Virus record (IMG/VR): IMGVR_UViG_3300028194_000423
Span: 1 to 24,345 of that record
Length of the DNA: 24,345 nucleotides
From: a virus
Reading direction: 5' to 3' (one strand)
Program-made: the position numbers and the translations under genes
The notes under the pieces: model-generated
Database searches by the model: none
What the model was told of the DNA's origin: nothing
What the model saw: only the letters and a program-made list of their open reading frames with translations
In this document: one piece after another, positions 704-17,278 of the stretch
Numbering within the stretch: the stretch's first letter is position 1
How the letters are laid out: each line of letters begins with the position of its first letter

Positions 704-2449
704 ATGTCTGAAGAAATATTTGTAAATATAGAAACGGAAATCCAGCAACCGTACAATGCTCGAGTTCCAGTAAATGGTCAAGAACCAAACATTAGACAGA
801 CACAGTCTATCTATACAGCTGAATCTCGTCAGCCCTCAACATATCAATACAGGTCTCCACATATATACACTAGGCCTGTTTCTGCACAAGAACCAAACAT
901 AAGGAATGCAAGGTCACCCTTTACTTATGCAAGACAGGGTCAGACACCTACAATCTATCAACATCAAAGTCCATTCACATATGCAAGACAAGCACTGCAA
1001 CCAGCAACATATGATTTTCAGCAACCATATCCCTATATTGCAACTGCTCAAGAACCAAATGCAAGGTCTTTACAAACTTCTTATCCTTATATTGCAAATG
1101 CTAGACAGCCTGGGTTCTACCAACACCCTAGTCCATTCATATATCAAAACCCTGTAAATGCCCAAGAACCAAACATAAGAGATACACAACAACCATATCC
1201 TTATATTGCAGTTGCTCAAGAAGCAAATCAAGTAGCTGCACAAGAACCTAATATACGTAATAAGCAGACACCGTTTACTTATAATCATAGGTCACCATTC
1301 ACTTACAGAAATCCAGTGAATAAACAAGAACCTAATATTAGAAACCAACAAGAACCTAATATAAGAAATCAGCAAGAACCTAATATTAGAAACAGTCAAA
1401 CAGCGTTTACTTATAATCATAGGTCACCATTTACATATAGGAATCCTGTATCTGCACAACAACCTACTATTAAGAATGCACAACAGCCTACTATTAAGAA
1501 CCAACAGGAACCTAATATTAGAAATGCACAAGCAGCGTTTAATTATAATCATAGGTCACCGTCTACTTATCAGACTCCTGTTAATAAACAAAATCCTTAT
1601 CCCTATAGTGCAAATTCTCAGACTGCTTTTACATATCAACATAGGTCACCATTTACTTATGCAAGACAGGGTCAAACACCAACGACTTATAATGTACAGA
1701 CACCAGCAACTACAAGTTCATCAACTCCAATAATTGCCCAACAACCTTCCATATATGATGGAGTGGATGGAGAGGATGCACCAAACAATGCAGGCAACAC
1801 TACTTGGGGCCCAGGCAACAGTGCAGCGATTCATATTAACGCGGGTCAATCTCAGTCAGGCCTCACAACAACAAATAGAACTTGGGAAACAGTAAGAACT
1901 CATTCTTCAGCTAGTGAAACAAGTGGCAGTTGCTTAATGCGATTCGATTGGCAATCCAGTGGTACCAATGCATATTCAGTTAAAGCAAAATGGTATGCAG
2001 TCGATAGCGCAGCAATGGGCCCAGTTTATGAAGACTATATTAACTTCTATGGAGACTTCCAAGGTGATAGTCAAGATGGAGATGGTATAGAGATATCTGC
2101 TAAATGGAATTCTAGTTCTGACTTTGATGACAGTAATTTTAGTGGTTCAGTTGAATTTCCAAATGATTCAGCTAACGAAACTGGTGCAAAAGTTAAAAAC
2201 CAATACTATATGATTTGGGATGGAGAACAAAATAGTGATAGTGCAACAGCGGTAGGGTTTAAGTGGTCTGCAAATTCTGGCAATAGTAACCAATCGGGTT
2301 CTTTAGGTTATTTGCAGTCTTCAAACGTTTCAATACAATTAAAAGTTGTGAATGGTAATGATTCGGGTAATCCTACTATCTATACAACAAACCCAACGAA
2401 TCAAATGATTCGATTGTCCATGGCTAAAGGTTCGGGGGCATTATTATAA
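704..2449 (+). CDS. Pro/Tyr-repeat fibre protein with unique C-terminal domain
   Basis: This 581-residue protein is unlike any family I can name. Residues about 15-350 are tandem short units such as RSPFTYRN, QEPNIRNA and QPYPYIA; inside the tract successive prolines lie 2, 6, 8, 10 or 16 residues apart, always an even number. Residues about 350-581 form a non-repetitive Gly/Ser/Asn/Trp-rich domain (WGPGNSAAIHINAGQSQSG, then several Trp and Asp-rich segments) absent from the three paralogues in this window. I infer an elongated shaft with a terminal, possibly receptor- or glycan-binding, head. There is no signal peptide or membrane segment. It starts 6 nt after the preceding gene without an obvious Shine-Dalgarno (SD) sequence, and its stop overlaps the next start (TAATG at 2447-2451). 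A virion role is inferred from context. Confidence 0.75.
   Translation: MSEEIFVNIETEIQQPYNARVPVNGQEPNIRQTQSIYTAESRQPSTYQYRSPHIYTRPVSAQEPNIRNARSPFTYARQGQTPTIYQHQSPFTYARQALQPATYDFQQPYPYIATAQEPNARSLQTSYPYIANARQPGFYQHPSPFIYQNPVNAQEPNIRDTQQPYPYIAVAQEANQVAAQEPNIRNKQTPFTYNHRSPFTYRNPVNKQEPNIRNQQEPNIRNQQEPNIRNSQTAFTYNHRSPFTYRNPVSAQQPTIKNAQQPTIKNQQEPNIRNAQAAFNYNHRSPSTYQTPVNKQNPYPYSANSQTAFTYQHRSPFTYARQGQTPTTYNVQTPATTSSSTPIIAQQPSIYDGVDGEDAPNNAGNTTWGPGNSAAIHINAGQSQSGLTTTNRTWETVRTHSSASETSGSCLMRFDWQSSGTNAYSVKAKWYAVDSAAMGPVYEDYINFYGDFQGDSQDGDGIEISAKWNSSSDFDDSNFSGSVEFPNDSANETGAKVKNQYYMIWDGEQNSDSATAVGFKWSANSGNSNQSGSLGYLQSSNVSIQLKVVNGNDSGNPTIYTTNPTNQMIRLSMAKGSGALL
737..1753 (+). repeat. Short Pro/Tyr peptide repeats, tract 1
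   Basis: This is a coding repeat of octads and hexads with the grammar [R/Q]-x-P-x-[T/I/N/V]-x-..., for example RSPFTYRN, QEPNIRNQ and QQPTIKNA. Three QEPNIRN units stand in direct tandem around 1326-1395. DNA copies are similar but differ in synonymous codons. Confidence 0.85.
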
Positions 2450-3621
2450 TGGCTATTGCTCAACAACCATATAGTTTACAACAACCTACTATAGTTTCAT
2501 ATAGGATGCCTTCTATAGCAAGTAAACAGAATCCTTATCCATATATTGCAGCTGCAAGAGCACCTCATATTAGAGAAGCAAGACAGCCTTCTACATATGA
2601 TAGACAAGGACAGACACCTACTACATATAGAAATCCAGTGAATGCACAAGAACCTAATATTAGAGAAGCAAGACAACCTAGTACATACCAACATAGAAGT
2701 CCTTTAACATATAGTCACAGGTCACCATTTACCTATCAACATAGGTCACCGTTCACTTATAGAAGTCCAGTGGATGCACAGGAACCAAACATAAGAGAGG
2801 CAAGACAACCTAATACATATAACCATAGAAGTCCTTTAACATATAGTCACAGGTCACCGTCTACGTATCAACATCAAAGTCCACTCACATATAGAAGTCC
2901 AGTGGATGCACAGCAACCAAACATAAGAGGTGCAAGACAACCTAGTTCGTATGAACATAGGTCACCGTTCACCTATGAGACAAGAAGTCCATTTACATAT
3001 GCAAGACAAGCAATAAGACAAGTTGCATATCAACATCAAAGTCCGTTCACTTATCAGAAATCTAGTAATGCACAAACAAATGTTGTAAAGGCAAATCAAA
3101 CACCATTTACGTATCAAAGAACTGGTCAACAACCAAGTATCTATCAACATAGAAGTCCATTTACGTATGCTAGACAAGGTCAACAACCAGCTATTGGTAA
3201 CCGTGATGTACCTTATCCATATATTGCAATTGGAAATCAACCTGTTGCTAGGGATAAGCAATTACCTTATCCATATATTGCAGCTGGACAAACTCCGTCA
3301 ACGTATAACCATAGAAGTCCGTTCACATATCAAAGCACAGTACAAGGACAAGAACCTAATATAAGAAATACACAATCACCTTTCTTCTATAATGCTGGTT
3401 CTCAGATATCATATCAACATCAAAGTCCGTTTACCTATCAAGTGACTTACTCACATCAAAGAGTCATACCTAGATATGCAAAAGTTAAAGGTGTATTCAT
3501 TAATGATAATGGAACTCTGAAAAAGGTAGAAGAAGCTTATGTAAATGATGGTGGAACTGCAAAGAAAACACATCAATCTGTACCGACTGCTCAGTTCCCA
3601 TTTGGTGAGTTTGGTGCTTAA
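2449..3621 (+). CDS. Pro/Tyr-repeat fibre protein with C-terminal VNDGG module
   Basis: This 390-residue protein consists, from about residue 5 to 340, of the same short units as its upstream neighbour (QHRSPFTY, AQEPNIRE, ARQPSTYQ, LPYPYIAA). All proline spacings in the tract are even, including long gaps of 12, 14, 16, 18 and 20 residues. The C-terminus (about 342-390) is different: KVKGVFINDNGTLKKVEEAY and YVNDGGTAKKTHQ form two copies of a short beta-hairpin module with a V-x-D/N-G-T-x-K pattern, often seen at phage tail-protein ends. The start codon overlaps the stop of the preceding gene (TAATG), so translation is probably coupled. A virion fibre is inferred; no enzymatic motif is visible. 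Confidence 0.75.
   Translation: MAIAQQPYSLQQPTIVSYRMPSIASKQNPYPYIAAARAPHIREARQPSTYDRQGQTPTTYRNPVNAQEPNIREARQPSTYQHRSPLTYSHRSPFTYQHRSPFTYRSPVDAQEPNIREARQPNTYNHRSPLTYSHRSPSTYQHQSPLTYRSPVDAQQPNIRGARQPSSYEHRSPFTYETRSPFTYARQAIRQVAYQHQSPFTYQKSSNAQTNVVKANQTPFTYQRTGQQPSIYQHRSPFTYARQGQQPAIGNRDVPYPYIAIGNQPVARDKQLPYPYIAAGQTPSTYNHRSPFTYQSTVQGQEPNIRNTQSPFFYNAGSQISYQHQSPFTYQVTYSHQRVIPRYAKVKGVFINDNGTLKKVEEAYVNDGGTAKKTHQSVPTAQFPFGEFGA
2455..3465 (+). repeat. Short Pro/Tyr peptide repeats, tract 2
   Basis: Coding repeats of the same octad/hexad family. HRSPFTY and HRSPLTY units recur as tandem blocks around 2690-3000. The Arg-Ser pair is written either AGG-TCN or AGA-AGT. Confidence 0.85.
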
Positions 3622-3644
3622 TTCATAAGTAAAACTTAAAAAGG

Positions 3645-3652
3645 TATAAATA
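3645..3652 (+). promoter_or_regulatory. T4-type late promoter box TATAAATA
   Basis: Perfect match to the T4 late consensus TATAAATA. The first base of the box is 13 nt before the ATG at 3658, so initiation by the T4 rule would fall at or next to the start codon and give a leaderless message. Confidence 0.7.
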
Positions 3653-3657
3653 GATAT

Positions 3658-3987
3658 ATGGCTATTCTTGCAAACATATTTATCGACCAACATACAGACT
3701 TCAGCATTACTGTAGATGTCACCGATGCAACTGGAAATGTTCTTAACTTAACAGGTTATACTGCAGCTGCACAAATGAGAAAGACATATACTTCAACAAA
3801 TGCAAGTGCAACATTCAGTACTGTAGTATCAGCGCCTGATGGTAAGGTAACTTTATTATTAACCGATACTGTTACTGGTGCATTGGAGCCAGGCAGGTAT
3901 GTTTACGATATGACTGTAACTAGTGGTTCAACAACGACTAGAGTAATAGAAGGACAAGCCATCGTAACCCCAAGTGTGACGAGGTAA
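3658..3987 (+). CDS. Small Ig-like / BppU-N-type structural protein
   Basis: This 109-residue beta-rich protein begins MAILANIFIDQHTDFSITVD and continues with LTGYTAAAQMRKTY, DGKVTLLLTDTVTGALEPGR, YVYDMTV and IEGQAIVTPSVTR. The order of DFSITVDVTDATGNVLNLTG, a central Arg, T-x-x-LEPGRYVYD and a final VTPxVTR is typical of the small Ig-fold domain found in phage baseplate or fibre proteins (BppU N-terminal-like). It likely serves as an adaptor or decoration domain in the tail. A TATAAATA box lies just upstream; the only SD-like bases (AAGG at 3641-3644) are 13 nt from the ATG and would be lost from a message started at that box. Confidence 0.7.
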   Translation: MAILANIFIDQHTDFSITVDVTDATGNVLNLTGYTAAAQMRKTYTSTNASATFSTVVSAPDGKVTLLLTDTVTGALEPGRYVYDMTVTSGSTTTRVIEGQAIVTPSVTR

Positions 3988-3991
3988 TAAT

Positions 3992-4237
3992 ATGGCAATT
4001 AGAGGAACATTAAGTAGAGTTGTAACCGTCGGTGGTAAAGTCACTGGTGGTGGAAACATCAAAGCAACACAGGTTGCTATGGGTGGAACTTCTGCAGCCC
4101 AAACAGACATCACTGCAAAATCAATCAATGAACTTGCAGACGTAAATGCTTCGGAAACAGATGATGGATTACTATCATATGACCAAGCATCAGACAAATG
4201 GACTACAACTACCGTTTTAGACGGTGGGACATTCTAA
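3992..4237 (+). CDS. Small fibre-associated protein ending in DGGTF
   Basis: This 81-residue protein follows 4 nt after the previous stop, with GAGG (3980-3983) as SD. It starts MAIRGTLSRVVTVGGKVTGG and continues with ITAKSINELADVNASETDDG, LLSYDQASDKW and a C-terminal LDGGTF. The segment around residues 50-72 (LADVNxSxTDDGLLSYDxAxDKW) is a pattern common in marine phage fibre proteins. The C-terminal DGGTF is shared with the proteins ending at 5988 and, as DGGTI, at 8475. It is probably a small virion or fibre-attachment component; the specific role is unknown. Confidence 0.65.
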   Translation: MAIRGTLSRVVTVGGKVTGGGNIKATQVAMGGTSAAQTDITAKSINELADVNASETDDGLLSYDQASDKWTTTTVLDGGTF

Positions 4238-4240
4238 AAC

Positions 4241-4248
4241 ACTAAATA
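4241..4248 (+). promoter_or_regulatory. Putative late promoter box ACTAAATA
   Basis: A variant of the late box, identical to the one before the gene at 14405. Initiation about 13 nt from its first base (about 4254) would give a roughly 127-nt structured leader for the gene at 4381. Confidence 0.4.
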
Positions 4249-4263
4249 AGTGTACAAATCAAG

Positions 4264-4346
4264 GTTGTCGACAGTGAGACAACGACCCACATTGTGAGTG
4301 GACAGACTATATAATGAACTCAACTTCTCGGGATAGTGAACGAGAA
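4264..4346 (+). promoter_or_regulatory. Three consecutive stem-loops with related loops in a leader
   Basis: The 143-nt gap between genes 3992-4237 and 4381-5988 holds three inverted repeats. GTTGTC/GACAAC (4264-4269 with 4278-4283) has loop GACAGTGA. CCAC/GTGG (4287-4290 with 4298-4301) has loop ATTGTGA. TTCTCG/CGAGAA (4325-4330 with 4341-4346) has loop GGATAGTGAA. All three loops contain A-Y-W-GTGA. An SD (AAAGGAAA) follows before ATG 4381. There is no U-tract, so a terminator is unlikely. It may be a regulatory leader or protein-binding array. Confidence 0.5.
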
Positions 4347-4380
4347 ACATAACTAATAATTTTATTTAAAGGAAATAAAA

Positions 4381-5988
4381 ATGGCAACAGTAATTCAGAT
4401 TAAAAGAAGTACAGGTGTATCTGCACCAGCTATCTCCGACTTAGCGGAAGGTGAATTAGCGTACGTACAGGATAGGTCGAATTCGGGTGCTGGAGCAAAA
4501 CTATTCATCGAATCAGTAGATTCTGATAATAGTACACCGTTAATCCAAGCAATTGGTGGTAAGTACTATACAGATATGCTTGCTGGTACAAGTGCAACTC
4601 CTGCCGACCTTAAGGTTGGTAATAGTGCAAGTACAGGTGGTAGTTTAAAGTTAATGGAAGACACAGACAACGGAACAAACTTCGTTGCCCTTAAATCTCC
4701 AAACACTTTAGGTTCTTCAGTAACGTGGACTCTTCCTTCAACAGACGGTAGTGCAAACCAAGTCATCGGTACAGATGGTTCGGGTCAACTTGCATTCTTA
4801 TCAACAACATCAACCCTAGCAGGTGCAACGGATTCAGATATTTCTTCTCCAGCAGCAGGACACGTTCTTGTTCATGACGGAAGTAACTCTTTTGACAACA
4901 AACCAATAAGTGGTGATGTTACTATGGCATCTAGTGGTGCTGTAACAATCGCAAACGATGCTGTAGAAACAGCAATGATTGCAGACAGTAATGTAACAGT
5001 AGGAAAAATCGACTTCTTAGTAGACGAAGACAATATGGCTTCTAACTCTGCAGTCAAAGTTCCTTCTCAGCAATCTGTTAAAGCATATGTAGACAGTAGT
5101 GTAACCGCTTCAGACTTAGATATGGCTGGTGATAGTGGAACTGGTGCAGTCGACTTAGACTCTCAGTCAATCACATTTACTGGTGGAACTGGTGTAACAA
5201 CTTCTGTTTCAGGTCAAGCAGCGACTTTCGCTATTGGTCAGGCAGTTGGAACTTCAGACAACGTATCATTCGGTAACGTAACAGTTGGCGGAACACTAAA
5301 CTCAGACGATATCACTGCAACAACATTGACTGCAAGTGGTAACGTTGTTGTAACAGGTAACTTAAGTGTTAACGGTACTACTACAACAGTAAATAGTACA
5401 ACTGTTTCTATCGCAGACCCAGTGTTTGAAATTGGTTCAGATAGTTCAGACGATAACTTAGACCGTGGTATTAAATTCAAATATAACGATGGAGCTGCTA
5501 AACTCGGTTTCTTCGGTATGGACGAAAATAATCAGAAATTTGTTGCTCTTAAAGCTGCAACAGATTCTTCTTCAGTATTCAGTGGTACAGCGATGGACGG
5601 TGTATTCGGTGGATTAGAAGCAAGTGGTCTTGCATTAAGTGGTTCAATCACTTCTGTAGACGGTGCTGCTCCAACAGCTGGTCAAATAATGATGGGTACT
5701 GGTTCAGACTTTGCAGTTGGAACTATTACTGCTGGTGATGGAATTGATGTTACTAACGGAAGTGGAAGCATTACAATCAGTTCTGAGCAATCTACTGCAT
5801 CTAATTTAGGTGTTGTAATTGTAGCAGCTGGAGATGGTATGGACGTATCATACTCAAGCGGAACAGCAACTGTAAGTGGTGAAGATGCAACAACATCCAA
5901 TAAAGGTATTGCAAGTTTTGCTACAGCAAACTTTACAGTATCAAGTGGTGCAGTTTCAATCACTGGTATTGACGGCGGAACATTTTAA
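4381..5988 (+). CDS. Tail-fibre-like structural protein (535 aa)
   Basis: The N-terminus MATVIQIKRSTGVSAPAISD followed by LAEGELAYVQD is the common phage fibre start module (KRSxxxxxP..sDLxxGExAy), shared with the gene at 6027. The middle is Gly/Thr/Ser/Asp-rich and includes DEDNMASNSAVKVPSQQSVK, repeated in the gene at 8475. Residues about 319-395 form the NGTTTTVNSTTVSIADPVFE module followed by DRGIKFKYNDGAAKLGFFG, a signature of marine T4-like fibre proteins. It ends GIDGGTF. AAAGGAAA (4368-4375) is a good SD. No enzymatic motif is visible. I infer a virion fibre or tail-associated protein; its position in the particle cannot be told from the sequence. Confidence 0.8.
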   Translation: MATVIQIKRSTGVSAPAISDLAEGELAYVQDRSNSGAGAKLFIESVDSDNSTPLIQAIGGKYYTDMLAGTSATPADLKVGNSASTGGSLKLMEDTDNGTNFVALKSPNTLGSSVTWTLPSTDGSANQVIGTDGSGQLAFLSTTSTLAGATDSDISSPAAGHVLVHDGSNSFDNKPISGDVTMASSGAVTIANDAVETAMIADSNVTVGKIDFLVDEDNMASNSAVKVPSQQSVKAYVDSSVTASDLDMAGDSGTGAVDLDSQSITFTGGTGVTTSVSGQAATFAIGQAVGTSDNVSFGNVTVGGTLNSDDITATTLTASGNVVVTGNLSVNGTTTTVNSTTVSIADPVFEIGSDSSDDNLDRGIKFKYNDGAAKLGFFGMDENNQKFVALKAATDSSSVFSGTAMDGVFGGLEASGLALSGSITSVDGAAPTAGQIMMGTGSDFAVGTITAGDGIDVTNGSGSITISSEQSTASNLGVVIVAAGDGMDVSYSSGTATVSGEDATTSNKGIASFATANFTVSSGAVSITGIDGGTF

Positions 5989-6026
5989 TTAATATTTCAT
6001 CAATCAATCAATACTAGGAGAGTAAC

Positions 6027-6854
6027 ATGGCAACAGTTATTAATTTTAAAAGAAGTTCGACTCAGAATGCAGTCCCGACTACTAGTGATTTATCACTAGG
6101 TGAAGTCGCGATTAATACCTATCATGGTAGAATGTATACTGAAAAGAACGATGGGTCAGCAGCGGTTTCTGAAATCGGTTCTAATCCTAAAACTCTTACT
6201 GTTAATGACGCCTACTCCTTTCCATCAAGTGACGGAACATCGAACCAAGTATTGTCAACGAATGGCTCAGGCACACTTTCATTTAGTAATCAACCATCAA
6301 GTGGAGTTGTAACATTTACCTACACTATAGGCTCAACGACAACAGTCATCACTGGAAACGATGATGATAGTAACTCGTTAGTTTATCAAGCAGGTAGTGA
6401 ACAAGTTTACTTAAATGGTGTAAAACTAATTGGTGGTGGCATTGACTATGCAACGACATCCAGTTCGGTCATTACCCTTCAAGCAAATGCTTTAAGTGGT
6501 GATGTGTTAGAAATAGTTGCAATCACAGCTGCAGCGAACCTTGTACAAGGGTTCTTTACTGCAAGTGTTTTAACAGCAACAACAGCAGACCAAGTATTAT
6601 CTTCAAATGCAGTTGCAATAAAGGCAGTTAAATATGTCATTAATGCAACTCATGCTTCGGCAGGGACACATGCAAGTGAAGTATTACTTATTAATAACGG
6701 CTCGAATGCATACTTCACGCAATATGGTGATGTGTATTCAACAGCAAGTTTGTTTACATTGAGTGCAGACGTTGACTCGGGGGCAATGAGATTACTCGTT
6801 ACTCCAGCCAATACAAACACTACAATTGATACATTCCAAATTAGACATTCTTAA
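6027..6854 (+). CDS. Tail-fibre-like protein with NGV-L and conserved C-terminal domain
   Basis: This 275-residue protein has an AGGAGAG SD at 6015-6021. The N-terminus (MATVINFKRSSTQNAVPTTS, then DLSLGEVAINTYHGRMYTEK) is the same start module as the gene at 4381. Residues about 94-170 contain TFTYTIGSTTTVI and QVYLNGVKLIGGGIDYATTS followed by GDVLEIVA, a widespread phage fibre motif (VYLNGVxLxxGxDYxxxxxxxxL...GDVxEIVA). Residues about 195-275 (AVKYVINATHASAGTHASEV to DTFQIRHS) are paralogous to the C-terminal domains of the next two genes. It is likely a virion fibre or tail-collar subunit. Confidence 0.75.
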   Translation: MATVINFKRSSTQNAVPTTSDLSLGEVAINTYHGRMYTEKNDGSAAVSEIGSNPKTLTVNDAYSFPSSDGTSNQVLSTNGSGTLSFSNQPSSGVVTFTYTIGSTTTVITGNDDDSNSLVYQAGSEQVYLNGVKLIGGGIDYATTSSSVITLQANALSGDVLEIVAITAAANLVQGFFTASVLTATTADQVLSSNAVAIKAVKYVINATHASAGTHASEVLLINNGSNAYFTQYGDVYSTASLFTLSADVDSGAMRLLVTPANTNTTIDTFQIRHS

Positions 6855-6868
6855 GGGGGGATTAACTA

Positions 6869-7282
6869 ATGGCAAAATCAAATAGTTTTAAATTAGCAGA
6901 ATTAATCCGTGTCTTCCAGTACGATACATCGTCAGATAAAATCAGTACAAGTAAGACCCTTTTAGATGCAAACAGAAGTAAAGGCGATTTAACTACTACT
7001 GCAACTACCCAAGTTAACTTGGATACGTTTGCAAAAGCAAGTTATAGAGCTGCACGATATGTTATTGCAATGACTGAAGGGGGTGATTTTCATAGTACCG
7101 AACTAATGTTAGTTCATGATGGTACCAATGTAACATTAACAGCTTACGGCACGTTAAAAAGTGGTTCTGTTCTGGCAACCTTTGATGCAGATATAAGTGG
7201 GAGTGACCTCAGATTGAGAATCACACCTGCTACAACTTCATCAACCGTTACTAAATTTGATAGAACAACAGTAGACGCATAA
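6869..7282 (+). CDS. Small structural protein carrying the shared C-terminal domain
   Basis: This 137-residue protein has a strong SD (AAGGGGGG, 6853-6860) partly overlapping the upstream stop. After a short N-terminus (MAKSNSFKLAELIRVFQYDT) the rest is the domain YRAARYVIAMTEGGDFHSTE, LMLVHDGTNVTLTAYGTLKS, LATFDADISGSDLRLRITPA and TVTKFDRTTVDA. It aligns along its length with the C-terminal domains of the genes at 6027 and 7346. The pattern is K/R-Y-x-I, then E-L/V-x-x-x-x-x-G, Y-G-x-x, L-x-T-F, D-x-x-x-G-x-x-R-L/I and T-K/x-F. A stable terminator follows. I infer a virion protein, perhaps a free-standing copy of a head domain used at fibre tips. Confidence 0.7.
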   Translation: MAKSNSFKLAELIRVFQYDTSSDKISTSKTLLDANRSKGDLTTTATTQVNLDTFAKASYRAARYVIAMTEGGDFHSTELMLVHDGTNVTLTAYGTLKSGSVLATFDADISGSDLRLRITPATTSSTVTKFDRTTVDA

Positions 7283-7302
7283 ACAAAAGACCAAAATCTT
7301 TT

Positions 7303-7329
7303 AAGGGGAACTTCGGTTCCCCTTTTTTT
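7303..7329 (+). terminator. Intrinsic terminator with C(UUCG)G loop
   Basis: A perfect 9-bp stem (7303-7311 with 7316-7324) is capped by UUCG (7312-7315) closed by a C-G pair, an exceptionally stable tetraloop. A T-run at 7323-7329 follows. It ends the transcription unit that includes the gene at 6869. Confidence 0.92.
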
Positions 7330-7332
7330 AGC

Positions 7333-7340
7333 TATAAATA
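7333..7340 (+). promoter_or_regulatory. T4-type late promoter box TATAAATA
   Basis: Perfect late consensus directly behind the terminator and 13 nt (first base) before ATG 7346. No SD fits between the terminator and the ATG, so the message is predicted to be leaderless. Confidence 0.75.
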
Positions 7341-7345
7341 GAACT

Positions 7346-8179
7346 ATGGCAACTCAATCTAAATTTTTAGCAGATGTAGGGATACAAACAGCAGGAGATA
7401 CATCCATAGGTGGGAATCTTGTTGTTACTGGTGACCTAACTGTTAACGGAACCAATACAATTATTGATTCTACAACCCAATCGGTTACAGATTCATTGAT
7501 AGAACTTGCAAGTGGTAATACAACTGCAGATACTATTGACATTGGTATATATGGTAACTATAATGACGGTCTAAGTGGAGAGGGTGGTGCAAGTGAATAT
7601 ACAGGTCTATTTAGAGACGCGTCAGACTCCACATGGAAGTTATTTGATGGTCTAGAAGTAGAACCTTCTACCACAGTTAATATGAGTGGTAGTGGTTATG
7701 CATTAGCAGACTTACATGTTGGTGACTTAGTTGCAACAACATTGACTGCAACAAATAGTTTAACAGGTGCAAGTATTACTTACCCAACTTCAGATGGAAG
7801 TAGTGGTCAAGTATTAACTACAAATGGTAGTGGAACACTAACCTTTGCAACACCTACAGGTTTAGAAGGTGGAACAGTAACGACTACATCAACCTCTGAA
7901 GCAACTATGGATACCTTTGCAACTGGCTCTTATAGAAGTGCAAAGTATGAAGTATCTATATCAGATTCAACAAGTGGAACGTATCAGTTCACAGAACTTT
8001 CAATAGTTCATAATGGAACAACTGCAAGTGTGTCTCAGTACGGTACAGTCCTTACAGGGAATTCAGAACTTGCAACATTTGGAGTAGATATCAATATAGG
8101 AACTCTAAGAATTAGAGCAACTTCTGCTTCTTCAAATTCAACCGTCTATAAATTTAAAAAGATTTTAGTAGATGTATAA
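7346..8179 (+). CDS. Tail-fibre-like protein (277 aa)
   Basis: The N-terminus is MATQSKFLADVGIQTAGDTS. Residues about 22-60 carry the GNLVVTGDLTVNG...SLIELASG module also found in the genes at 4381 and 8475. Residues about 68-95 contain GIYGNYNDG and YTGLFRDASDSTWKLFDGLE, a common continuation of this module in marine phage fibres. The C-terminal third, from about residue 195 (YRSAKYEVSISDSTSGTYQF to TVYKFKKILVDV), is the domain shared with the two genes upstream. There is no SD: a terminator ends 16 nt before the ATG and a late promoter box occupies the gap. This gene is therefore transcribed on its own and probably translated from a leaderless mRNA. A virion role is inferred. Confidence 0.75.
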   Translation: MATQSKFLADVGIQTAGDTSIGGNLVVTGDLTVNGTNTIIDSTTQSVTDSLIELASGNTTADTIDIGIYGNYNDGLSGEGGASEYTGLFRDASDSTWKLFDGLEVEPSTTVNMSGSGYALADLHVGDLVATTLTATNSLTGASITYPTSDGSSGQVLTTNGSGTLTFATPTGLEGGTVTTTSTSEATMDTFATGSYRSAKYEVSISDSTSGTYQFTELSIVHNGTTASVSQYGTVLTGNSELATFGVDINIGTLRIRATSASSNSTVYKFKKILVDV

Positions 8180-8207
8180 AATACGATACTTATGAGTGGG
8201 CAGAATC

Positions 8208-8215
8208 GATAAATA
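8208..8215 (+). promoter_or_regulatory. Late promoter box GATAAATA
   Basis: One mismatch to TATAAATA and a fit to NATAAATA. It would give a leader of about 36 nt with AAAGGA as SD for the gene at 8257. The preceding TGAGTGGGCAGA (8193-8204) nearly matches TGAGTGGACAGA at 4295-4306. Confidence 0.55.
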
Positions 8216-8256
8216 AATGTATCACCCCTCAAGGTAAACCTTAAAAGGACACATAA

Positions 8257-8475
8257 ATGGCAACACAAAATACATTCGTAATTGAGTACGGACTTACAGT
8301 TGGTTCAACAGAAGTTATTTCCTCTGCAGGAAAACTAGCTGTATCAGCAATATCTTTACTTACTTCAGATAACTTAACGGAAGGTTCTTCGAACCAATAC
8401 TTTACTTCAAGTAGATTTAACACTTCATTCGATACTAGATTATCAAATGCAGTTATTGATGGGGGTACAATCTAA
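8257..8475 (+). CDS. Mini fibre protein ending in DGGTI
   Basis: This 72-residue protein has AAAAGGA as SD at 8242-8248. The N-terminus MATQNTFVIEYGLTVGSTEV resembles the first residues of the large fibre downstream (NFILKNGLSVGTNDV). It continues with LTSDNLTEGSSNQYFTSSRF, equivalent to the NLTENTNLYYTDARADARI-type repeats of the large fibre, and ends VIDGGTI. It thus looks like a start module joined directly to one fibre repeat and an end tag. The stop overlaps the next ATG (TAATG at 8473-8477), implying coupled translation. A small virion adaptor or fibre-assembly component is possible. Confidence 0.65.
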   Translation: MATQNTFVIEYGLTVGSTEVISSAGKLAVSAISLLTSDNLTEGSSNQYFTSSRFNTSFDTRLSNAVIDGGTI

Positions 8476-11366
8476 TGGCAGGAGAAAAGAATTTTATACT
8501 GAAGAACGGTTTATCCGTAGGAACAAATGATGTTCTAGATAGTTCGGGTGACTTAGTAGCAGGTGCATTTGGTACTGCAGCTATAGAGGTCATCGATGAC
8601 CACGTTGCAAATACCTTACTAACAGCAGGTGCAGGCATTGGGCTTGCATATGATGACTCTGCTGGAACACTTACAATCACAGGACAAGTTGGTGATATTA
8701 CAGGAGTTAACGCAGGACTTGGTTTAACTGGTACTGCAACTAGTGGAGATGCAACATTAAACATTGGTGCTGGTACAGGTATTACTGTAAATGCAGATGA
8801 CATTGCAATCAACTTTAAAGACGAAGATAATATGGCATCAGATAGTGCCGTACATGCAGCTACTCAACAATCAATTAAAGCATATGTTGACACTCAAGTT
8901 GCAACAGTTCCAGTTGGAGACATAACAAGTGTTGTTGCTGGAGCAGGTTTAACAGGTGGTGGAACAAGTGGTGATGTAACAGTAAATGCTATTGCTGGAA
9001 CAGGTATCACAGTTAATGCAGATAGTATTGAAGCTGATATGACTGCAATTAGAGCAAGTATCGATGGTGCAGACCTTGATATGAGTGGTAACAAAGTATT
9101 ATTTGGTAACATGTATGCTCAAGAAGCAGACTTACCAAGTGCAAGTACATATCATGGTATGTTTGCACATGTACATGGAACAGGAGCAGGTTATTTTGCT
9201 CATGCTGGTGCATGGAAAAAATTACTAGATGAGTCTAGTTCAACAACTGCAAACTTAACAGAAAACACAAACCTGTATTATACAGATGCAAGAGCAGATG
9301 CAAGGATTACAAATGCACTTATAGATGAAGACGATTTCTCATCCAATAGTGCTACTAAGATTCCTTCACAACAATCTACAAAAGCATATATTGCTACACA
9401 GATTGCAACTAAAGATAATTCAGACGAAATTACAGAAGGTTCAAGTAACCTTTATCACACCACTGCAAGAGCAAGAGCATCTATAAGTGCTGGTGGTGAC
9501 TTAGCATACAACAGTACAACTGGTGTAATGAGTTTCACAAACGATGCTGGAGATATTTCTTCAGTAGTTGCTGGTAACGGTTTAACTGGTGGTGCAACTA
9601 CTGGTGACGCAACCTTGACGGTTGGTGCTGGTACAGGTATTACAGTTAACTCAACTAACGTTGCAGTTAATATGGGTGCATTTGATTCAGATGACTTAAA
9701 CGAAGGCTCAACTAATCTATATCACACTACAGAAAGAGTTCAAGATATTGCTGGAGCAATGTTCAGTTCAAATACTGAAACAGGTATTGCAGTAACATAT
9801 GACGATGCAGACGGAACAATAGACCTTGCAGTAGACGCAGAATTTATTTCAGATACAGTTGGTAACATGGTCACTTCTAATACAGAAAGTGGTCTTACAG
9901 TTACGTATCAAGATGCAGATAACACTTTAGACTTTGCAGTCGGAACACTTAACCAAGATACAACAGGATTAGCAGGAACTGCTACAGCACTTGCAAGTGC
10001 AAGAACTATCTCGGGTGTTTCATTTGACGGTACAGCAAACATCACACTAAACACTGGTGGAATCACAGAGAGTGGTAACCTTTACTTTACAAACGAAAGA
10101 GTGGATGACAGAGTTAATGCATTAATTGTTGGCGGAACAAACATAACTGCAACATACGATGATTCAGCTGGAACACTTACAATTGACGGTAACGCAGCGG
10201 ACATCACAGGTGTTACAGCTGGAGACGGTTTATCGGGTGGTGGTTCAAGTGGTACAGTTACTTTAAACCTAGATGCTTCAGTAGCAGGTGACGGTCTTGC
10301 ACATTCAAGTGGTGTTCTATCAGTCGGAGTAGACGATAGTTCAATCGAAACAAATTCAGATGCATTAAGAGTTAAAGCACTTGGTGTTACTAATGCCATG
10401 TTAGCAGGTTCAATTGCAAACAGTAAACTTGCAAATGACAGTGTAACAATTAACTCACAGTCAGTAGACTTAGGTGCTTCAGTTACTTTAAACACATCTC
10501 ACATTGGTGAGAGTGGTAACTTATACTTCACAGATGAAAGAGTTGACGATAGAGTTAACGCTTTAATTACTGCTGGTGTAAACGTTGCAACAACATACGA
10601 TGATTCAGCTGGAACACTAGAAATTAGAGTACCTTACGAAAACATTCAAGACACAGTTGGAACTCAATTTGCTACAAACGGTTCACACACAAACATAACT
10701 GCAACATACGATGATGCTGGTGACGGTGCAATTGACCTTTCAATTACAGATGCAACAATCAGAGCAAAACACTCTGCAGTTTCAAACGGAATTGGTGGAC
10801 TAGCATATAGTACTTCAACAGGTGCATATACTTACACAGGGCCTTCTGCAACAGAAGTAAGAGCTCAACTAAGTGGTGGTACTGGTGTTGCATACAGTGG
10901 TGGTGAATTCAGTATTGGACAGGCAGTTGCAACAACTAGTGATGTTACCTTTGCAGACGTATCTGCAAGTGGTAACCTTGTAGTTACAGGTAACTTGACA
11001 GTTAACGGTTCAACAGTAACAAATAGTTCAACTAACACAACAATCGAAGATTCATTGATTGAGTTAGGAAGTGGAACAACTGGTTCTCCATCGGGTGACG
11101 CAGGTATTGTCATTGAAAGAGGTGATGAAAGTAACGTGTTTATGGGTTGGGACGACAGTGCATCAAGTTTTGCATTCGGAACAACTACTGCAACAGGTTC
11201 TTCAACTGGTGCATTAACAGTGACACCAGCAGCGGTATCTACAGGTGCATTGACAATAACAAATGCATCCAACAGTGGTGGAACTGCAAGAAATGTTTAC
11301 CAATCAACATCGGCTCCAACAGGTGGGCAAGGTGCAGTTGGTGATATGTGGATTCTTTACTCCTAA
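8475..11366 (+). CDS. Large tail-fibre-like protein (963 aa)
   Basis: This is the longest gene in the window. GGGGG (8461-8465) serves as SD, and the start overlaps the preceding stop. Residues about 70-610 contain at least four copies of a unit like GDITSVVAGAGLTGGGTSGD followed by GAGTGITVN (about 8688, 8920, 9548 and 10200). They alternate with LYYTDARADARI / LYFTDERVDDRVNAL units and THTNITATYDDAGDGAIDL-type segments. Residues about 831-870 hold the GNLVVTGNLTVNG...SLIELGSG module, and the end is APTGGQGAVGDMWILYS. These repeats are familiar from tail fibres of marine T4-like phages and are expected to form long trimeric beta-structured shafts. The particular fibre and the receptor are unknown. 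Confidence 0.85.
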   Translation: MAGEKNFILKNGLSVGTNDVLDSSGDLVAGAFGTAAIEVIDDHVANTLLTAGAGIGLAYDDSAGTLTITGQVGDITGVNAGLGLTGTATSGDATLNIGAGTGITVNADDIAINFKDEDNMASDSAVHAATQQSIKAYVDTQVATVPVGDITSVVAGAGLTGGGTSGDVTVNAIAGTGITVNADSIEADMTAIRASIDGADLDMSGNKVLFGNMYAQEADLPSASTYHGMFAHVHGTGAGYFAHAGAWKKLLDESSSTTANLTENTNLYYTDARADARITNALIDEDDFSSNSATKIPSQQSTKAYIATQIATKDNSDEITEGSSNLYHTTARARASISAGGDLAYNSTTGVMSFTNDAGDISSVVAGNGLTGGATTGDATLTVGAGTGITVNSTNVAVNMGAFDSDDLNEGSTNLYHTTERVQDIAGAMFSSNTETGIAVTYDDADGTIDLAVDAEFISDTVGNMVTSNTESGLTVTYQDADNTLDFAVGTLNQDTTGLAGTATALASARTISGVSFDGTANITLNTGGITESGNLYFTNERVDDRVNALIVGGTNITATYDDSAGTLTIDGNAADITGVTAGDGLSGGGSSGTVTLNLDASVAGDGLAHSSGVLSVGVDDSSIETNSDALRVKALGVTNAMLAGSIANSKLANDSVTINSQSVDLGASVTLNTSHIGESGNLYFTDERVDDRVNALITAGVNVATTYDDSAGTLEIRVPYENIQDTVGTQFATNGSHTNITATYDDAGDGAIDLSITDATIRAKHSAVSNGIGGLAYSTSTGAYTYTGPSATEVRAQLSGGTGVAYSGGEFSIGQAVATTSDVTFADVSASGNLVVTGNLTVNGSTVTNSSTNTTIEDSLIELGSGTTGSPSGDAGIVIERGDESNVFMGWDDSASSFAFGTTTATGSSTGALTVTPAAVSTGALTITNASNSGGTARNVYQSTSAPTGGQGAVGDMWILYS

Positions 11367-11385
11367 TACAGGGGTTTAGAATTCT

Positions 11386-11393
11386 AATAAATA
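11386..11393 (+). promoter_or_regulatory. Late promoter box AATAAATA
   Basis: Fits NATAAATA and lies between the large fibre gene and the repeat-protein gene at 11418. A start near 11399 would leave a leader of about 19 nt with at best a weak SD (GGA at 11408-11410). Confidence 0.5.
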
Positions 11394-11417
11394 ACAGTAT
11401 TATTAATGGATAACTAA

Positions 11418-12908
11418 ATGGCAACAGGTTCACAAAAGGTCAAAACACCAGCAGGTTGGAATTCAACTCAAGGTGCATGGGTAAAAACAGCTAGTTCCAC
11501 ATGGAAAGCAGTTGACCAAATCTATATTAAAACTCCTACAGGATGGAATAATGCGTCAGGGCAGACTGCAACTCAAGTTCCTTACCCATACATTGCAAAT
11601 GGACAAGAACCCAATATAAGAAACAAACAGAATCCGTATCCTTATATTGCAAATGCACAAGAGCCTAACATAAGGAACAAACAGAATCCTTATCCATACA
11701 TTGCAAATGCACAAGAACCTAATATAAGAAGCCAACAACAACCGTATCCTTATATAGCACAAGCAAGACAACCTAGTACATACCAACATAGAAGTCCATT
11801 TACATATAGTAATGTTGGTCAACAACCTACTACTTATCAACATAGGTCACCGTTCACTTATAGGAATCCTGTAAATGCACAAGAGCCTAATATAAGGAAT
11901 GCACAAACACCGTTCACTTACAGAAATCCAGTGAATGGACAAGAACCTAATATTAGAGATGCAAGACAGCCTGCAACTTATCAACATAGGTCTCCTTTAA
12001 CATACTCACATAGGTCACCATTTACCTATCAACATAGGTCTCCATTCACATATAGAAATCCAGTGAATGCACAAGAACCTAATATTAGAAATGCAAGACA
12101 ACCTTCTACGTATCAACATAGGTCACCGTTAACATATAGTCATAGAAGTCCTTTAACGTATACTCATAGGTCACCATTTACATATAGAAGTCCTGTATCT
12201 GCACAAGAGCCTAACATAAGAGAAGCAAGACAACCTTCTACGTATCAACATAGAAGTCCTTTAACATATAGTCATAGGTCACCGTCTATTTACCAACATA
12301 GGTCACCATTTACATATAGAAGTCCTGTATCTGCACAAGAACCTAATATTCGTTCTGCACAACAACCGTATCCTTATATTGCAGCTGCACAACAACCTAA
12401 TATTCGTGCTGCACAACAACCTACTATTAAGAACCAACAGGAACCTAATATTAGAAATAATCAGGCACCATTTACGTACAATCATAGGTCACCGTTCACT
12501 TATAGGAATCCTGTATCTGCACAACAACCTAATATTCGTTCTGCACAAGAACCTAATATTAGAAGTTCACAAACACCATTTACATATAGTGCAAGGTATC
12601 CAGCGAATGCACAGCAACCTTTTACATTCCAAGCACCATTTACGTACAGGAACCCTACTAACGCAAGGCAACCTAACAGTGCAAGGAACCCATTCACATA
12701 TAGACAACCTTATATAGCGAATGGAAGACAACCAAATAGTGCAAGGAACCCATTCACATATAGAGTACCGTACATTGCAAACGCAAGAACTGGAACACCC
12801 GCTAGGTCACCAAGTATTGCACAACAACCCTCAACGTACCAGCACAGAAGTCCATTTACATACTACTTTGCTTACGGTGGCGGAGGGCAGAATTTTTATG
12901 AACCATAA
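11418..12908 (+). CDS. Pro/Tyr-repeat fibre protein with N-terminal WVKT module
   Basis: This 496-residue protein starts with about 50 non-repetitive residues: MATGSQKVKTPAGWNSTQGA, then WVKTASSTWKAVDQIYIKTP and TGWNN. These are two copies of a V/I-K-T-x-x-x-W short beta module related in style to the C-terminal module of the repeat protein at 2449. Residues about 53-490 are octads and hexads (NPYPYIANAQEPNIRNK, HRSPFTYRNPVNAQEP, HRSPLTYS, ARNPFTYRQPYIANG); proline spacing is always even within the tract. It ends with an aromatic/Gly tail, YYFAYGGGGQNFYEP. No enzymatic motif is visible. I infer a long extended fibre or sleeve protein of the virion, paralogous to the genes at 704, 2449 and 12960. 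Confidence 0.75.
   Translation: MATGSQKVKTPAGWNSTQGAWVKTASSTWKAVDQIYIKTPTGWNNASGQTATQVPYPYIANGQEPNIRNKQNPYPYIANAQEPNIRNKQNPYPYIANAQEPNIRSQQQPYPYIAQARQPSTYQHRSPFTYSNVGQQPTTYQHRSPFTYRNPVNAQEPNIRNAQTPFTYRNPVNGQEPNIRDARQPATYQHRSPLTYSHRSPFTYQHRSPFTYRNPVNAQEPNIRNARQPSTYQHRSPLTYSHRSPLTYTHRSPFTYRSPVSAQEPNIREARQPSTYQHRSPLTYSHRSPSIYQHRSPFTYRSPVSAQEPNIRSAQQPYPYIAAAQQPNIRAAQQPTIKNQQEPNIRNNQAPFTYNHRSPFTYRNPVSAQQPNIRSAQEPNIRSSQTPFTYSARYPANAQQPFTFQAPFTYRNPTNARQPNSARNPFTYRQPYIANGRQPNSARNPFTYRVPYIANARTGTPARSPSIAQQPSTYQHRSPFTYYFAYGGGGQNFYEP
11572..12870 (+). repeat. Short Pro/Tyr peptide repeats, tract 3
   Basis: The longest uninterrupted coding repeat tract of the octad/hexad family. Larger supermodules of the type RQPSTYQ-HRSPLTYS-HRSPFTY followed by RNPVNAQEPNIR recur several times at about 11960-12360, suggesting growth by duplication of multi-unit blocks. 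Confidence 0.85.
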
Positions 12909-12932
12909 GCTGATGATACATATGAATAGTAA

Positions 12933-12940
12933 TATAAAAT
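12933..12940 (+). promoter_or_regulatory. Possible late promoter box TATAAAAT
   Basis: Imperfect late box in the 51-nt gap before the gene at 12960. An SD (AGGAA, 12946-12950) follows. Confidence 0.3.
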
Positions 12941-12959
12941 TTAACAGGAATAATCTAAG

Positions 12960-14318
12960 ATGCCTATAGGTAATAGACAGCAACCCGCTAGCAGATTTGC
13001 TCAAACATCTGTCAATGTACAGACGCCTTCGATTGTGCAACAACCGTTTACATATAGTGCAAGATATCCAGCGAATGCACAGCAACCTTTTACATTCCAA
13101 GCACCATTTACGTATAATGCTAGATATCCAGCGAATGCACAACAACCGTTCACATTCCAAGCACCATTTACGTATAGGAACCCTACTAACGCAAGACAAC
13201 CAAATAGTGCAAGGAACCCATTTACATATAGACAACCGTACATTGCAAATGCAAGGCAACCTAATTCATACCAACATAGGTCACCATTTACGTACAGTTA
13301 TGGGTCTCCATTTACATATAGGGTTCCTGTATCTGCACAAGAACCTAATATTCGTTCTGCAAGACAACCGAGTTCATATCAACATAGAAGTCCTTTGACG
13401 TATTCACACAGGTCACCGTTTACGTATAGTCATAGGTCACCATTTACGTATGCTAGGCAAGGTCAAACACCGTTTACTTATAATCATAGGTCACCATTCA
13501 CTTACAGAAATCCAGTAAATGCACAAGAACCTAATATTAGAAGCAATCAGCAACCTAACATTAGAAGTCAACAAGAACCTAATATTAGAAATGCACAAGC
13601 AGCGTTTACATATAACCATAGAAGTCCGTTCACTTATAGGAATCCTGTATCTGCACAAGAGCCTAATATTAGAAACCAACAAGAACCTAATATAAGAAAT
13701 CAGCAAGAACCTAATATTAGAAACAATCAAGCACCATTTACGTACAATCATAGGTCACCGTCTACTTATCAGAATCCTAGTAATGCACAGGAACCTAATA
13801 TTCGTTCTGCACAACAACCTAATATTAGAAGTCAACAAGAGCCTAATATTAGAAACAATCAGACACCGTTTACGTATAGTCATAGGTCACCGTTTACTTA
13901 TCAGAATCCTAGTAATGCACGTCAACCTTCTACGTATCAACATAGGTCGCCGTTCACTTATAGGAATCCTGTAAATGCACAAGAGCCTAATATTAGAAAC
14001 AGAGATACTACATTCCCTTACATCGCAGTAGCCCAAGAACCTAATATAAGGAATGCACAAACACCGTTCACATATCAAAGAACTGGTCAGTCACCTGTAA
14101 TATATTCTCACAGGTCACCATTTACGTATGCTAGACAAGGTCAAACACCAACGACTTATAACCATAGAAGTCCGTTCACGTATCAAAGAACTGGTCAAAC
14201 ACCAACGACTTATCAACATAGAAGTCCGTTTACATATAATAGAACTGGTCAAACGCCTGAAGCAAGATGGGATGGAGTGGTATCACAACAGTGGCCTGCA
14301 ACACCAATTACGTCATAG
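12960..14318 (+). CDS. Pro/Tyr-repeat fibre protein (452 aa)
   Basis: It starts MPIGNRQQPASRFAQTSVNV and is repeat from about residue 9 to 440. Early units are hexads (RYPANAQQPFTFQAPFTY, twice). Later units are octads (HRSPFTYS, QEPNIRNQ in tandem, TGQTPTTYQ). The end is a short non-repeat tail, EARWDGVVSQQWPATPITS. Proline parity is kept throughout the tract and breaks only in the first few residues and in this tail. AGGAA at 12946-12950 is the SD, and a strong terminator follows 25 nt after the stop, so this is the last gene of its unit. Segments are near-identical to parts of the gene at 11418, for example ANAQQPFTFQAPFTYRNPTN followed by ARQPNSARNPFTYRQPYIA, pointing to recent exchange or duplication between the pair. 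An elongated virion fibre protein is inferred. Confidence 0.75.
   Translation: MPIGNRQQPASRFAQTSVNVQTPSIVQQPFTYSARYPANAQQPFTFQAPFTYNARYPANAQQPFTFQAPFTYRNPTNARQPNSARNPFTYRQPYIANARQPNSYQHRSPFTYSYGSPFTYRVPVSAQEPNIRSARQPSSYQHRSPLTYSHRSPFTYSHRSPFTYARQGQTPFTYNHRSPFTYRNPVNAQEPNIRSNQQPNIRSQQEPNIRNAQAAFTYNHRSPFTYRNPVSAQEPNIRNQQEPNIRNQQEPNIRNNQAPFTYNHRSPSTYQNPSNAQEPNIRSAQQPNIRSQQEPNIRNNQTPFTYSHRSPFTYQNPSNARQPSTYQHRSPFTYRNPVNAQEPNIRNRDTTFPYIAVAQEPNIRNAQTPFTYQRTGQSPVIYSHRSPFTYARQGQTPTTYNHRSPFTYQRTGQTPTTYQHRSPFTYNRTGQTPEARWDGVVSQQWPATPITS
12984..14262 (+). repeat. Short Pro/Tyr peptide repeats, tract 4
   Basis: Coding repeats of the same family. It includes tandem QEPNIRN units at about 13660-13725 and ends in TGQTPTTY-type decads. 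Confidence 0.85.
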
Positions 14319-16573: not shown

Positions 16574-17278
16574 ATGGATTTAAACGTTGAGTTAGAGTTC
16601 ATCAAAGAACCTTTCCATATCAAAGATATGCCTTTGAAAAAAGTATACGTTTTAGACGATTACTTATCTACAACAATGCATCATTGTATTGATGATAAAA
16701 TAACTAGAAATGCTTTTTGGGGAAAAAGTAATCAAGTAAACTCAAACAGTCCTACAGGATTACCTCATCATAGTTTTTGGGGAGCAGGTTTCTTCAGAGG
16801 CCATGACCAAGAAATAGAACATGATATGGAACCCAAAAAAACATATCTTATGAGATGGTTTAATAGAAAGTTACAAACCGACTTTGGATTTATGTGGGAG
16901 AGATTTCAATACTTTGGTTTGAATTCTCAGACTCAAGGACTAGAGGGAACAACACATGCAGATTGTGAACCTCAAGATGATTGGAATCTTTCATTTTTAT
17001 ATTATCCAAATAAATTTTGGAATGATTCTTGGGGGGGTTCTTTAAGAATGTATGATAAAATGCAACAAGGAATACACGGAAGAGCAGACCATATTAAAAA
17101 TCATCAAGTTGCAGAAGTGTATTTTAAACCTAATAGATTATTAATATTTGATGGAAGAATACCACATGGTGCAGACGCACCCAAACCAGCTGCAAAGTAT
17201 ATGGATAGACGTTCTTTGGTTATAAGAGGGGACGAAATTAGTCTAAGGACTTTATGGGGTGAAGATGCCTACGATTGA
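16574..17278 (+). CDS. 2OG-Fe(II) oxygenase, prolyl-hydroxylase-like
   Basis: 234 residues. The double-stranded beta-helix core is visible: THADCEPQDDWNLSFLYYPN gives the H128-x-D130 iron pair. It is followed by WGGSLRMYD, then KPNRLLIFDGRIPHGADAPK with the distal iron ligand H198. The 2-oxoglutarate-binding Arg is in DRRSLVI (R212 or R213). Spacing matches the P4H-like 2OG-Fe(II) dioxygenase class, which hydroxylates side chains (often Pro) using O2 and 2-oxoglutarate. Substrate cannot be deduced. The start is 4 nt after the previous stop with only a weak SD, and the 3' end overlaps the next gene by 14 nt, indicating a coupled operon. T4-like marine phages often carry such enzymes, mostly of unknown function. 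Confidence 0.8.
   Translation: MDLNVELEFIKEPFHIKDMPLKKVYVLDDYLSTTMHHCIDDKITRNAFWGKSNQVNSNSPTGLPHHSFWGAGFFRGHDQEIEHDMEPKKTYLMRWFNRKLQTDFGFMWERFQYFGLNSQTQGLEGTTHADCEPQDDWNLSFLYYPNKFWNDSWGGSLRMYDKMQQGIHGRADHIKNHQVAEVYFKPNRLLIFDGRIPHGADAPKPAAKYMDRRSLVIRGDEISLRTLWGEDAYD

Follow-up and report, generated by a model that had tools for sequence, protein, structure and literature searches.

Can a protein obey a rule about odd and even residue numbers, and what sort of structure would demand it? The question is raised by a stretch of viral DNA of 24,345 nucleotides (positions 1 to 24,345 of IMG/VR record IMGVR_UViG_3300028194_000423, hereafter the window), in which four open reading frames (ORFs), here called A to D, encode long proline-rich repeat tracts. 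An initial annotation, made from the letters of the sequence, had proposed that successive prolines in these tracts are always an even number of residues apart. We counted proline distances in the window and in relatives, and weighed what kind of chain could hold such a rule.

Proline parity in the four window proteins

All four ORFs were found where the annotation had placed them, arranged as pairs A+B and C+D.

704..2449 (+): ORF of protein A, 581 residues; N-cap, tract and tip domain
704..742 (+): A N-cap, type M[AS][DEKN]EI[FY][VI]N, in 32 of 162 clusters of relatives
749..1747 (+): A parity tract, residues 16-348
1754..2446 (+): A tip domain, a predicted beta sandwich, divergent, with other domains in its place in relatives
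2449..3621 (+): ORF of protein B, 390 residues; its start shares one base with the stop of A
2467..3471 (+): B parity tract, residues 7-341
3481..3579 (+): B C-cap, AKVKGVFIND.., with a weak phrog_13729 match
11418..12908 (+): ORF of protein C, 496 residues
11418..11573 (+): C N-cap, with the motif KVKTPxGW twice
11580..12854 (+): C parity tract, residues 55-479
12861..12905 (+): C short C-terminus with GGGG; here some relatives go on as poly-Gly and a Cys-Hint domain
12960..14318 (+): ORF of protein D, 452 residues
13026..14258 (+): D parity tract, residues 23-433
14262..14315 (+): D C-cap, RWDGVVSQQWPATPI; all 20 rows share R, W, D and W-P

Within the four tracts, 204 prolines defined 200 Pro-Pro distances. 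None was odd, and every even value from 2 to 20 was seen, as had been proposed; two of the 204 prolines (A residues 360 and 370) belong to the first part of the A tip domain and not to the repeat. Over the whole proteins, even distances amounted to 46 of 48 in A, 41 of 42 in B, 62 of 65 in C and 55 of 58 in D. The nine odd ones (two, one, three and three, respectively) all fell in end segments or in the A C-terminal domain, which is where the annotation had expected parity to break. In the four window tracts, the spectral power of Pro reached 46-74 at period 2 but no more than 2.3 at period 3.

The residues around the prolines followed a grammar that was largely as described. R or Q, said to stand nearly always two residues before Pro, did so at 180 of the 204 (88%, or 94% counting PxP; Q 94, R 86, P 12). 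Two residues after Pro, T, I, N or V had been expected: T (80) and I (68), together 148 of 204, and N (20) were borne out, V never occurred, and S (15) and P (12) made up further cases. Residues other than Pro were sorted by phase as well, with even:odd counts of 0:131 for Y, 0:45 for H, 2:61 for F, 71:3 for I and 11:1 for D (chi-square 482.6, 17 degrees of freedom, p 8.6e-92, a value that is only indicative because repeats are not independent).

At the DNA level, a single base separates 298 odd-phase and 283 even-phase codons from a Pro codon, whereas Pro itself was 204 even to 0 odd. One-step access is thus alike in both phases, and the missing odd prolines are not a matter of mutation. The word RSPFTY occurs 28 times in 20 codings and QEPNIR 31 times in 16, indicating that the repeats are not recent copies.

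Parity, phase and caps across relatives

Relatives were grouped in 162 clusters, two of which (L160:2 and L031:3) are unrelated long proteins. Loci of known phages were excluded (L071 and L072 from the cluster set, these two and L229-L232 from the gap-control and window-count set), and L001, L028, L191 and L205 stem from one record, whose A and D match those of the window at 100% identity and which is not independent of it. In 90 tracts picked by [RQ]xP density, window copies included, 3718 prolines gave 3628 distances, of which 41 were odd: 28 at the boundary of the D-type C-cap, 11 in L068 and 2 in L047. Distances of 6 or 8 accounted for 2923 of the 3628. A laxer definition by P density raised the odd count to 529 of 6842 by including tip domains and end segments, and counting [RQ]xP prolines up to 30 residues apart gave 119 of 5276. 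Parity was kept down to about 40% identity, neither L070 (37%) nor L064 (42%) having an odd distance. The two-residue rule looks selected rather than a by-product of repeat copying.

Once the D-type C-cap had been removed, even:odd counts in relatives were 3672:20 for P, 1191:82 for I and 186:10 for D, and 15:2453 for Y, 25:1261 for F, 5:524 for H, 30:542 for V and 3:92 for K. Pro, Ile and Asp therefore hold one phase and Tyr, Phe, His, Lys and Val the other; N was split evenly (1275:1291), and Q, R, T and S leaned to a phase without being exclusive to it. This segregation indicated a two-faced chain, each face with an alphabet of its own. The initial annotation had spoken of a polar Q/N/R/T ladder on one face; the ladder does not stand alone, since the other face (Y/F/A/H/V/E) is equally regular. 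Pro occupied 27.8% of even sites, and extra prolines also kept to that phase, PxP occurring 260 times at even sites while only 20 prolines stood at odd sites. In distinct 8-residue words, R or Q preceded Pro by two residues in 721 of 804 and I or T followed at +2 in 650 of 804; at even sites the entropies were 2.03, 2.79 and 1.71, and at odd sites they were 3.09, 2.54, 3.40 and 2.92. Constraint thus tends to be stronger at the even sites, a trend with a single exception.

Tract lengths change mostly in two-residue steps. In tract alignments (321 pairs of relatives) 42 of 724 gaps had an odd length, compared with 1250 of 2089 when ordinary, non-repeat proteins from these loci were aligned (1721 pairs, those past the identity filter among up to 2,500 shuffled pairs drawn), the k-mer overlap and end-margin filters differing between the two counts. 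Parity can be tested more independently than by gap length through the phase that a tract keeps with its caps, which was constant for the C N-cap in 46 of 46 clusters, the D C-cap in 43 of 43 and the B C-cap in 31 of 31. From the first Pro to the C-cap, D-type proteins took 26 distinct lengths between 166 and 560 residues, even in 31 of 32, and B-type proteins had one parity in 14 of 14.

A proposed shaft of extended chains and its alternatives

What are these tracts? The annotation knew of no described family with this rule, and this held for PHROGs, the PDB and phage records, one borderline Pfam match of C being the exception. In a profile search against viral proteins (PHROGs), run with the four window proteins and eight relatives, the tracts were unmatched, and the weak matches were confined to the B C-cap and one Hint end. 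PDB sequences gave no significant match to C or to three profiles, a search that would miss distant folds, triple-stranded beta-helices among them. Among 50,697 phage records, C had no match at 1e-5 and A none at 10 (B and D were not queried), a negative weakened by the low-complexity filter of BLAST. Pseudomonas phage KIL5, considered as a relative of a short C relative, was set aside (E 0.1; the ORF is short, 249 bases, and its neighbours are small hypothetical genes). The parity kind of tract was absent from the parts examined of C48C1, Mosig, Syn33 and AG-345-F15. Even distances there reached a fraction of 0.76 at most, in the X-Pro rod of C48C1 (33 distances), followed by 0.75 in AG-345-F15 (20 distances). 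The words RSPFTY, QEPNIR, NARQPS and AQEPNI were not found by literature text search, and searches of titles and abstract starts returned nothing on repeats of this kind.

The Pfam match joins C residues 151-177 to Cementoin (PF10511) at 27.4 bits (cut-off 27, E 2.5e-6). Like the tracts, Cementoin has short Pro-containing repeats, as do mussel-foot-like adhesive proteins. On the other hand, A, B and D were unmatched at E up to 1, and of the relatives L064 (25.5 bits) and L081 (17.0 bits) stayed below the cut-off while L068, L070 and L082 had none. We consider the match of C borderline and probably spurious. As far as sequence goes, these searches suggest that the tracts form a family unlike the known families searched.

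We hold, with moderate confidence, that the four proteins are subunits of virion appendages such as tail fibres or whiskers, and that the tracts are their shafts, built of extended chains in register. In an extended strand, both the side-chain face and the direction of the backbone NH alternate with period two. The even face would carry P, Q, R, T, N and I and the odd face Y, F, A, S, H and E, and identical chains would most likely lie side by side in register. Word spacing (6, 8 or 10 residues) could then vary freely. A slip of one residue would not be tolerated, because it would swap the faces and the left and right directions of backbone hydrogen bonds for the rest of the rod. A lone chain could not hold parity over gaps of 16-20 residues and up to the caps unless the parts next to it could tell one face from the other, and for this reason we favour a fibre shaft. 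The constant caps would anchor or nucleate the rod, the A C-terminal domain would be a receptor-binding tip, and in relatives of C the poly-Gly/Hint domain would probably process or tether the chain end. As in T4-like long and short tail fibres, the genes lie in a fibre cluster by a predicted L-shaped-fibre assembly protein, and the proteins have a repetitive shaft, caps and a swappable C-terminal tip; unlike those fibres, the tracts lack a PHROG match, have the one borderline Pfam match and carry a Pro-rich, strict-parity code. Thus the observation itself was confirmed and extended, and its interpretation as a fibre of putative beta-type chains, possibly with a new fold, both as the annotation had suggested, is plausible from sequence.

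To our knowledge, few natural fibrous proteins carry a code that can be read by eye, namely collagen, coiled coils and silk. The present family offers a strict and testable two-residue code with natural length variants and modular caps and tips. If a new rod fold were true, it would provide a programmable scaffold and a means to spot fibre genes in viral dark matter.

Several observations weigh against the fibre-shaft reading. AlphaFold2 found no structure for a single D-type chain (a 209-residue relative; predicted local distance difference test, pLDDT, 36; predicted template modelling score, pTM, 0.10), and the chain may just be without order. Most protein cores are hydrophobic, which the even face is not. 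The presence of the proteins in the virion is inferred from the position of their genes. The gap counts given above are not independent of Pro spacing, because aligned prolines force even gaps, and the pairs share ancestry. The phase of the A N-cap to its tract was 26 to 6 rather than constant. Phase also breaks in divergent fused members with A-type and B-type ends (L068, with 11 of 42 distances odd, L162, L163 and L173), in which in-phase blocks are parted by phase flips. From Met to cap, fused A/B proteins showed no end-to-end parity (10 odd to 7 even), and fused C/D proteins were 5 odd to 1 even, that is, five of six with one parity. These flips indicated that the rule belongs to continuous shaft blocks and not to the whole family end to end.

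A first alternative is that the tracts are a new sequence family of the known triple-stranded beta-helix (T4 gp5 type), in which case only the sequence code would be new; we see this as possible, if somewhat unlikely. Such helices, of which a phage hyaluronidase is another example, show two-residue alternation, beta strands by nature pointing in and out by turns, and the tracts are located in a fibre cluster. However, with Pro at about 27% of one face and Gly scarce, the tracts are unlike gp5, no PDB sequence or profile match was significant, and word lengths are irregular, which irregular triple-stranded helices might tolerate. The interior of the gp5 C-terminal helix is described as holding hydrophobic, polar and charged residues, with no well-defined hydrophobic core except at the tip (PMC4576200); polar residues can therefore fill such an interior, and a rod of this type can do without a hydrophobic core along its whole length.

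We give rather less credence to a bolder version of the shaft, a period-2 counterpart of collagen in which several identical extended chains in register would make a new fibrous fold. The NH of odd residues, which are almost never Pro, would bond to the neighbour chain and that of even residues would be dispensable, so that Pro would be allowed at any even site and forbidden at odd ones. Collagen and collagen-like phage fibres are likewise Pro-rich and repetitive in their shafts. Collagen itself has a Gly-X-Y period of 3 against the tract period of 2; Gly does not recur at every third residue in the tracts, which hold 5 to 9 Gly each (tracts of 339-429 residues), and Pro has no period-3 power.

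It is improbable, in our judgement, that the tracts are single-chain spacers, stiff or disordered, whose parity comes from an ancestral dipeptide repeat. The main single-chain alternative of this sort is the X-Pro linker of TonB, thought to be a stiff polyproline-II helix (PMC10907165). Such rods share with the tracts a richness in Pro and a two-residue sequence period, and the failure of AlphaFold2 to find a fold, the lack of a hydrophobic core, the isoelectric point of the window tracts (9.7-10.7) and the (AP)n(EP)n stretch, with poly-Gly after it, that the related phage C48C1 encodes in its fibre cluster all fit a spacer. But the tracts do not consist of consecutive X-Pro dipeptides: Pro fills only about 28% of even sites, the other residues are phased too and the faces have two alphabets. 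An isolated chain has no cause to keep parity over 16-20 residue gaps, 26 tract lengths and caps. Moreover, odd-phase Pro is missing even though 298 odd-phase codons are one base away, and aromatics hold the other phase nearly as strictly.

Finally, we judge it highly improbable that parity is a structurally meaningless by-product of DNA repeat dynamics in multiples of 6 nucleotides (nt). In its favour, tandem arrays with periods of 18, 24, 54, 60 and 132 nt exist. Against it, no 6- or 12-nt arrays that would give two-residue steps were among the 20 rows of arrays listed, copies differ in codons, extra Pro falls at even and hardly at odd sites, and the one-step codon counts speak against mutational inaccessibility.

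Modules, neighbouring genes and host

The caps and ends behave as modules. In A-type proteins the N-cap and the tract are followed by a C-terminal tip, of which there are several kinds that look unrelated; B-type proteins have a tract and the AKVKG C-cap. C-type proteins have the KVKTPxGW N-cap, and their tract gives way to a short end, to another domain, or to poly-Gly and then a Cys-Hint domain; D-type proteins join a tract to the RWDG..QQWP C-cap. Constant shafts and caps are thus combined with variable C-terminal tips. The A N-cap and B C-cap stand in one protein in 17 clusters, and the C N-cap and D C-cap in six. Each window pair therefore looks like one shaft gene split in two, and A/B (704-3621) and C/D (11418-14318) look parted by a tip or Hint domain together with a new start codon.

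The A tip was modelled as a beta sandwich (pLDDT 72.6, pTM 0.75, nine-row alignment). Eight related tips were 88, 51, 33, 31, 25, 23, 23 and 21% identical to it, a divergence that would fit receptor-binding tips. Foldseek gave no match in the PDB with E < 0.001. With VIA-align the best Z was 4.6 (pilin EcpA, a conjugative transposon lipoprotein, then fimbrial adhesins), a level common according to the tool. In BFVD a single match fell below 0.001, the uncharacterised A0A6J5MDS7 (E 7.4e-6). A ribonuclease, the best PDB profile at E 0.079, was taken as chance.

Four shaft proteins end in a Cys-Hint or intein-like domain that closes in VHN or AHN (L122:4946-6376, L107:3173-4603, L081:10582-11796 and L070:5953-7680); three are C-type, with poly-Gly before the domain, and one is A-type. 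Against Pfam, the L070 domain scored 34.5 bits with Vint (cut-off 27) and 33.6 with Hom_end_hint (cut-off 32.1), and that of L107 28.1 with Vint (cut-off 27), while Hint and intein matches of L081 and L122 were under the cut-off. Window C has no Hint domain, its chain closing with GGGG and a few further residues. In the proteins that have them, these domains might cleave themselves or tether the end of a phage fibre through a thioester.

The window genes run from fibre genes through connector genes (phrog_211 and phrog_460, which we take to be T4 gp13 and gp14) to the terminase and an ORF that may encode a tail sheath. The gene at 3658-3987, which lies beside the repeats, matches phrog_3304 (L-shaped tail fibre assembly) but scores higher with phrog_1084, a group without assigned function, and three ORFs between 4381 and 11366 match structural or tail-fibre PHROGs (phrog_9729, tail fibre; phrog_697, structural). 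The four repeat genes thus lie in a fibre-structural cluster. The terminases of the window and of Phage C48C1 (Kyanoviridae), the nearest known phage, share 56% identity, and the tail fibre genes of C48C1 occupy the same interval, between baseplate and connector genes. In that fibre cluster, C48C1 encodes a protein whose end is formed by an (AP)n(EP)n rod with poly-Gly (L232:29362-30405, at about 139.4-140.4 kb), which is another two-residue Pro code.

The source phage is probably T4-like and marine, the latter from its kinship to marine phages and not from sample data. A cyanophage identity was not retained: PF00124 (psbA type) was unmatched in nine of nine large relatives, records that may be incomplete. 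The family was found here solely in metagenomic phage contigs and in two GTDB contigs, the latter binned as Bacteroidota-type metagenome-assembled genomes (scan by C-cap patterns only), a weak hint of host because phage contigs may be misbinned.

Downstream of D lie two 2-oxoglutarate-Fe(II) oxygenases (16574-17278 and 18142-18861). The second is matched by 198 phage records, in the collection where A and C had no relative, and nine large relatives have 3 to 8 PF13640 matches each. Prolyl hydroxylation of the tracts by these enzymes was considered and is possible, but the link is unsupported, such genes being widespread in marine phages; a literature search for cyanophage and prolyl hydroxylase found nothing. 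Directly after D, a large protein (14405-15982) has a GT8-like C-terminal half, under the Pfam cut-off. It is matched by eight phage records and could modify the fibres.

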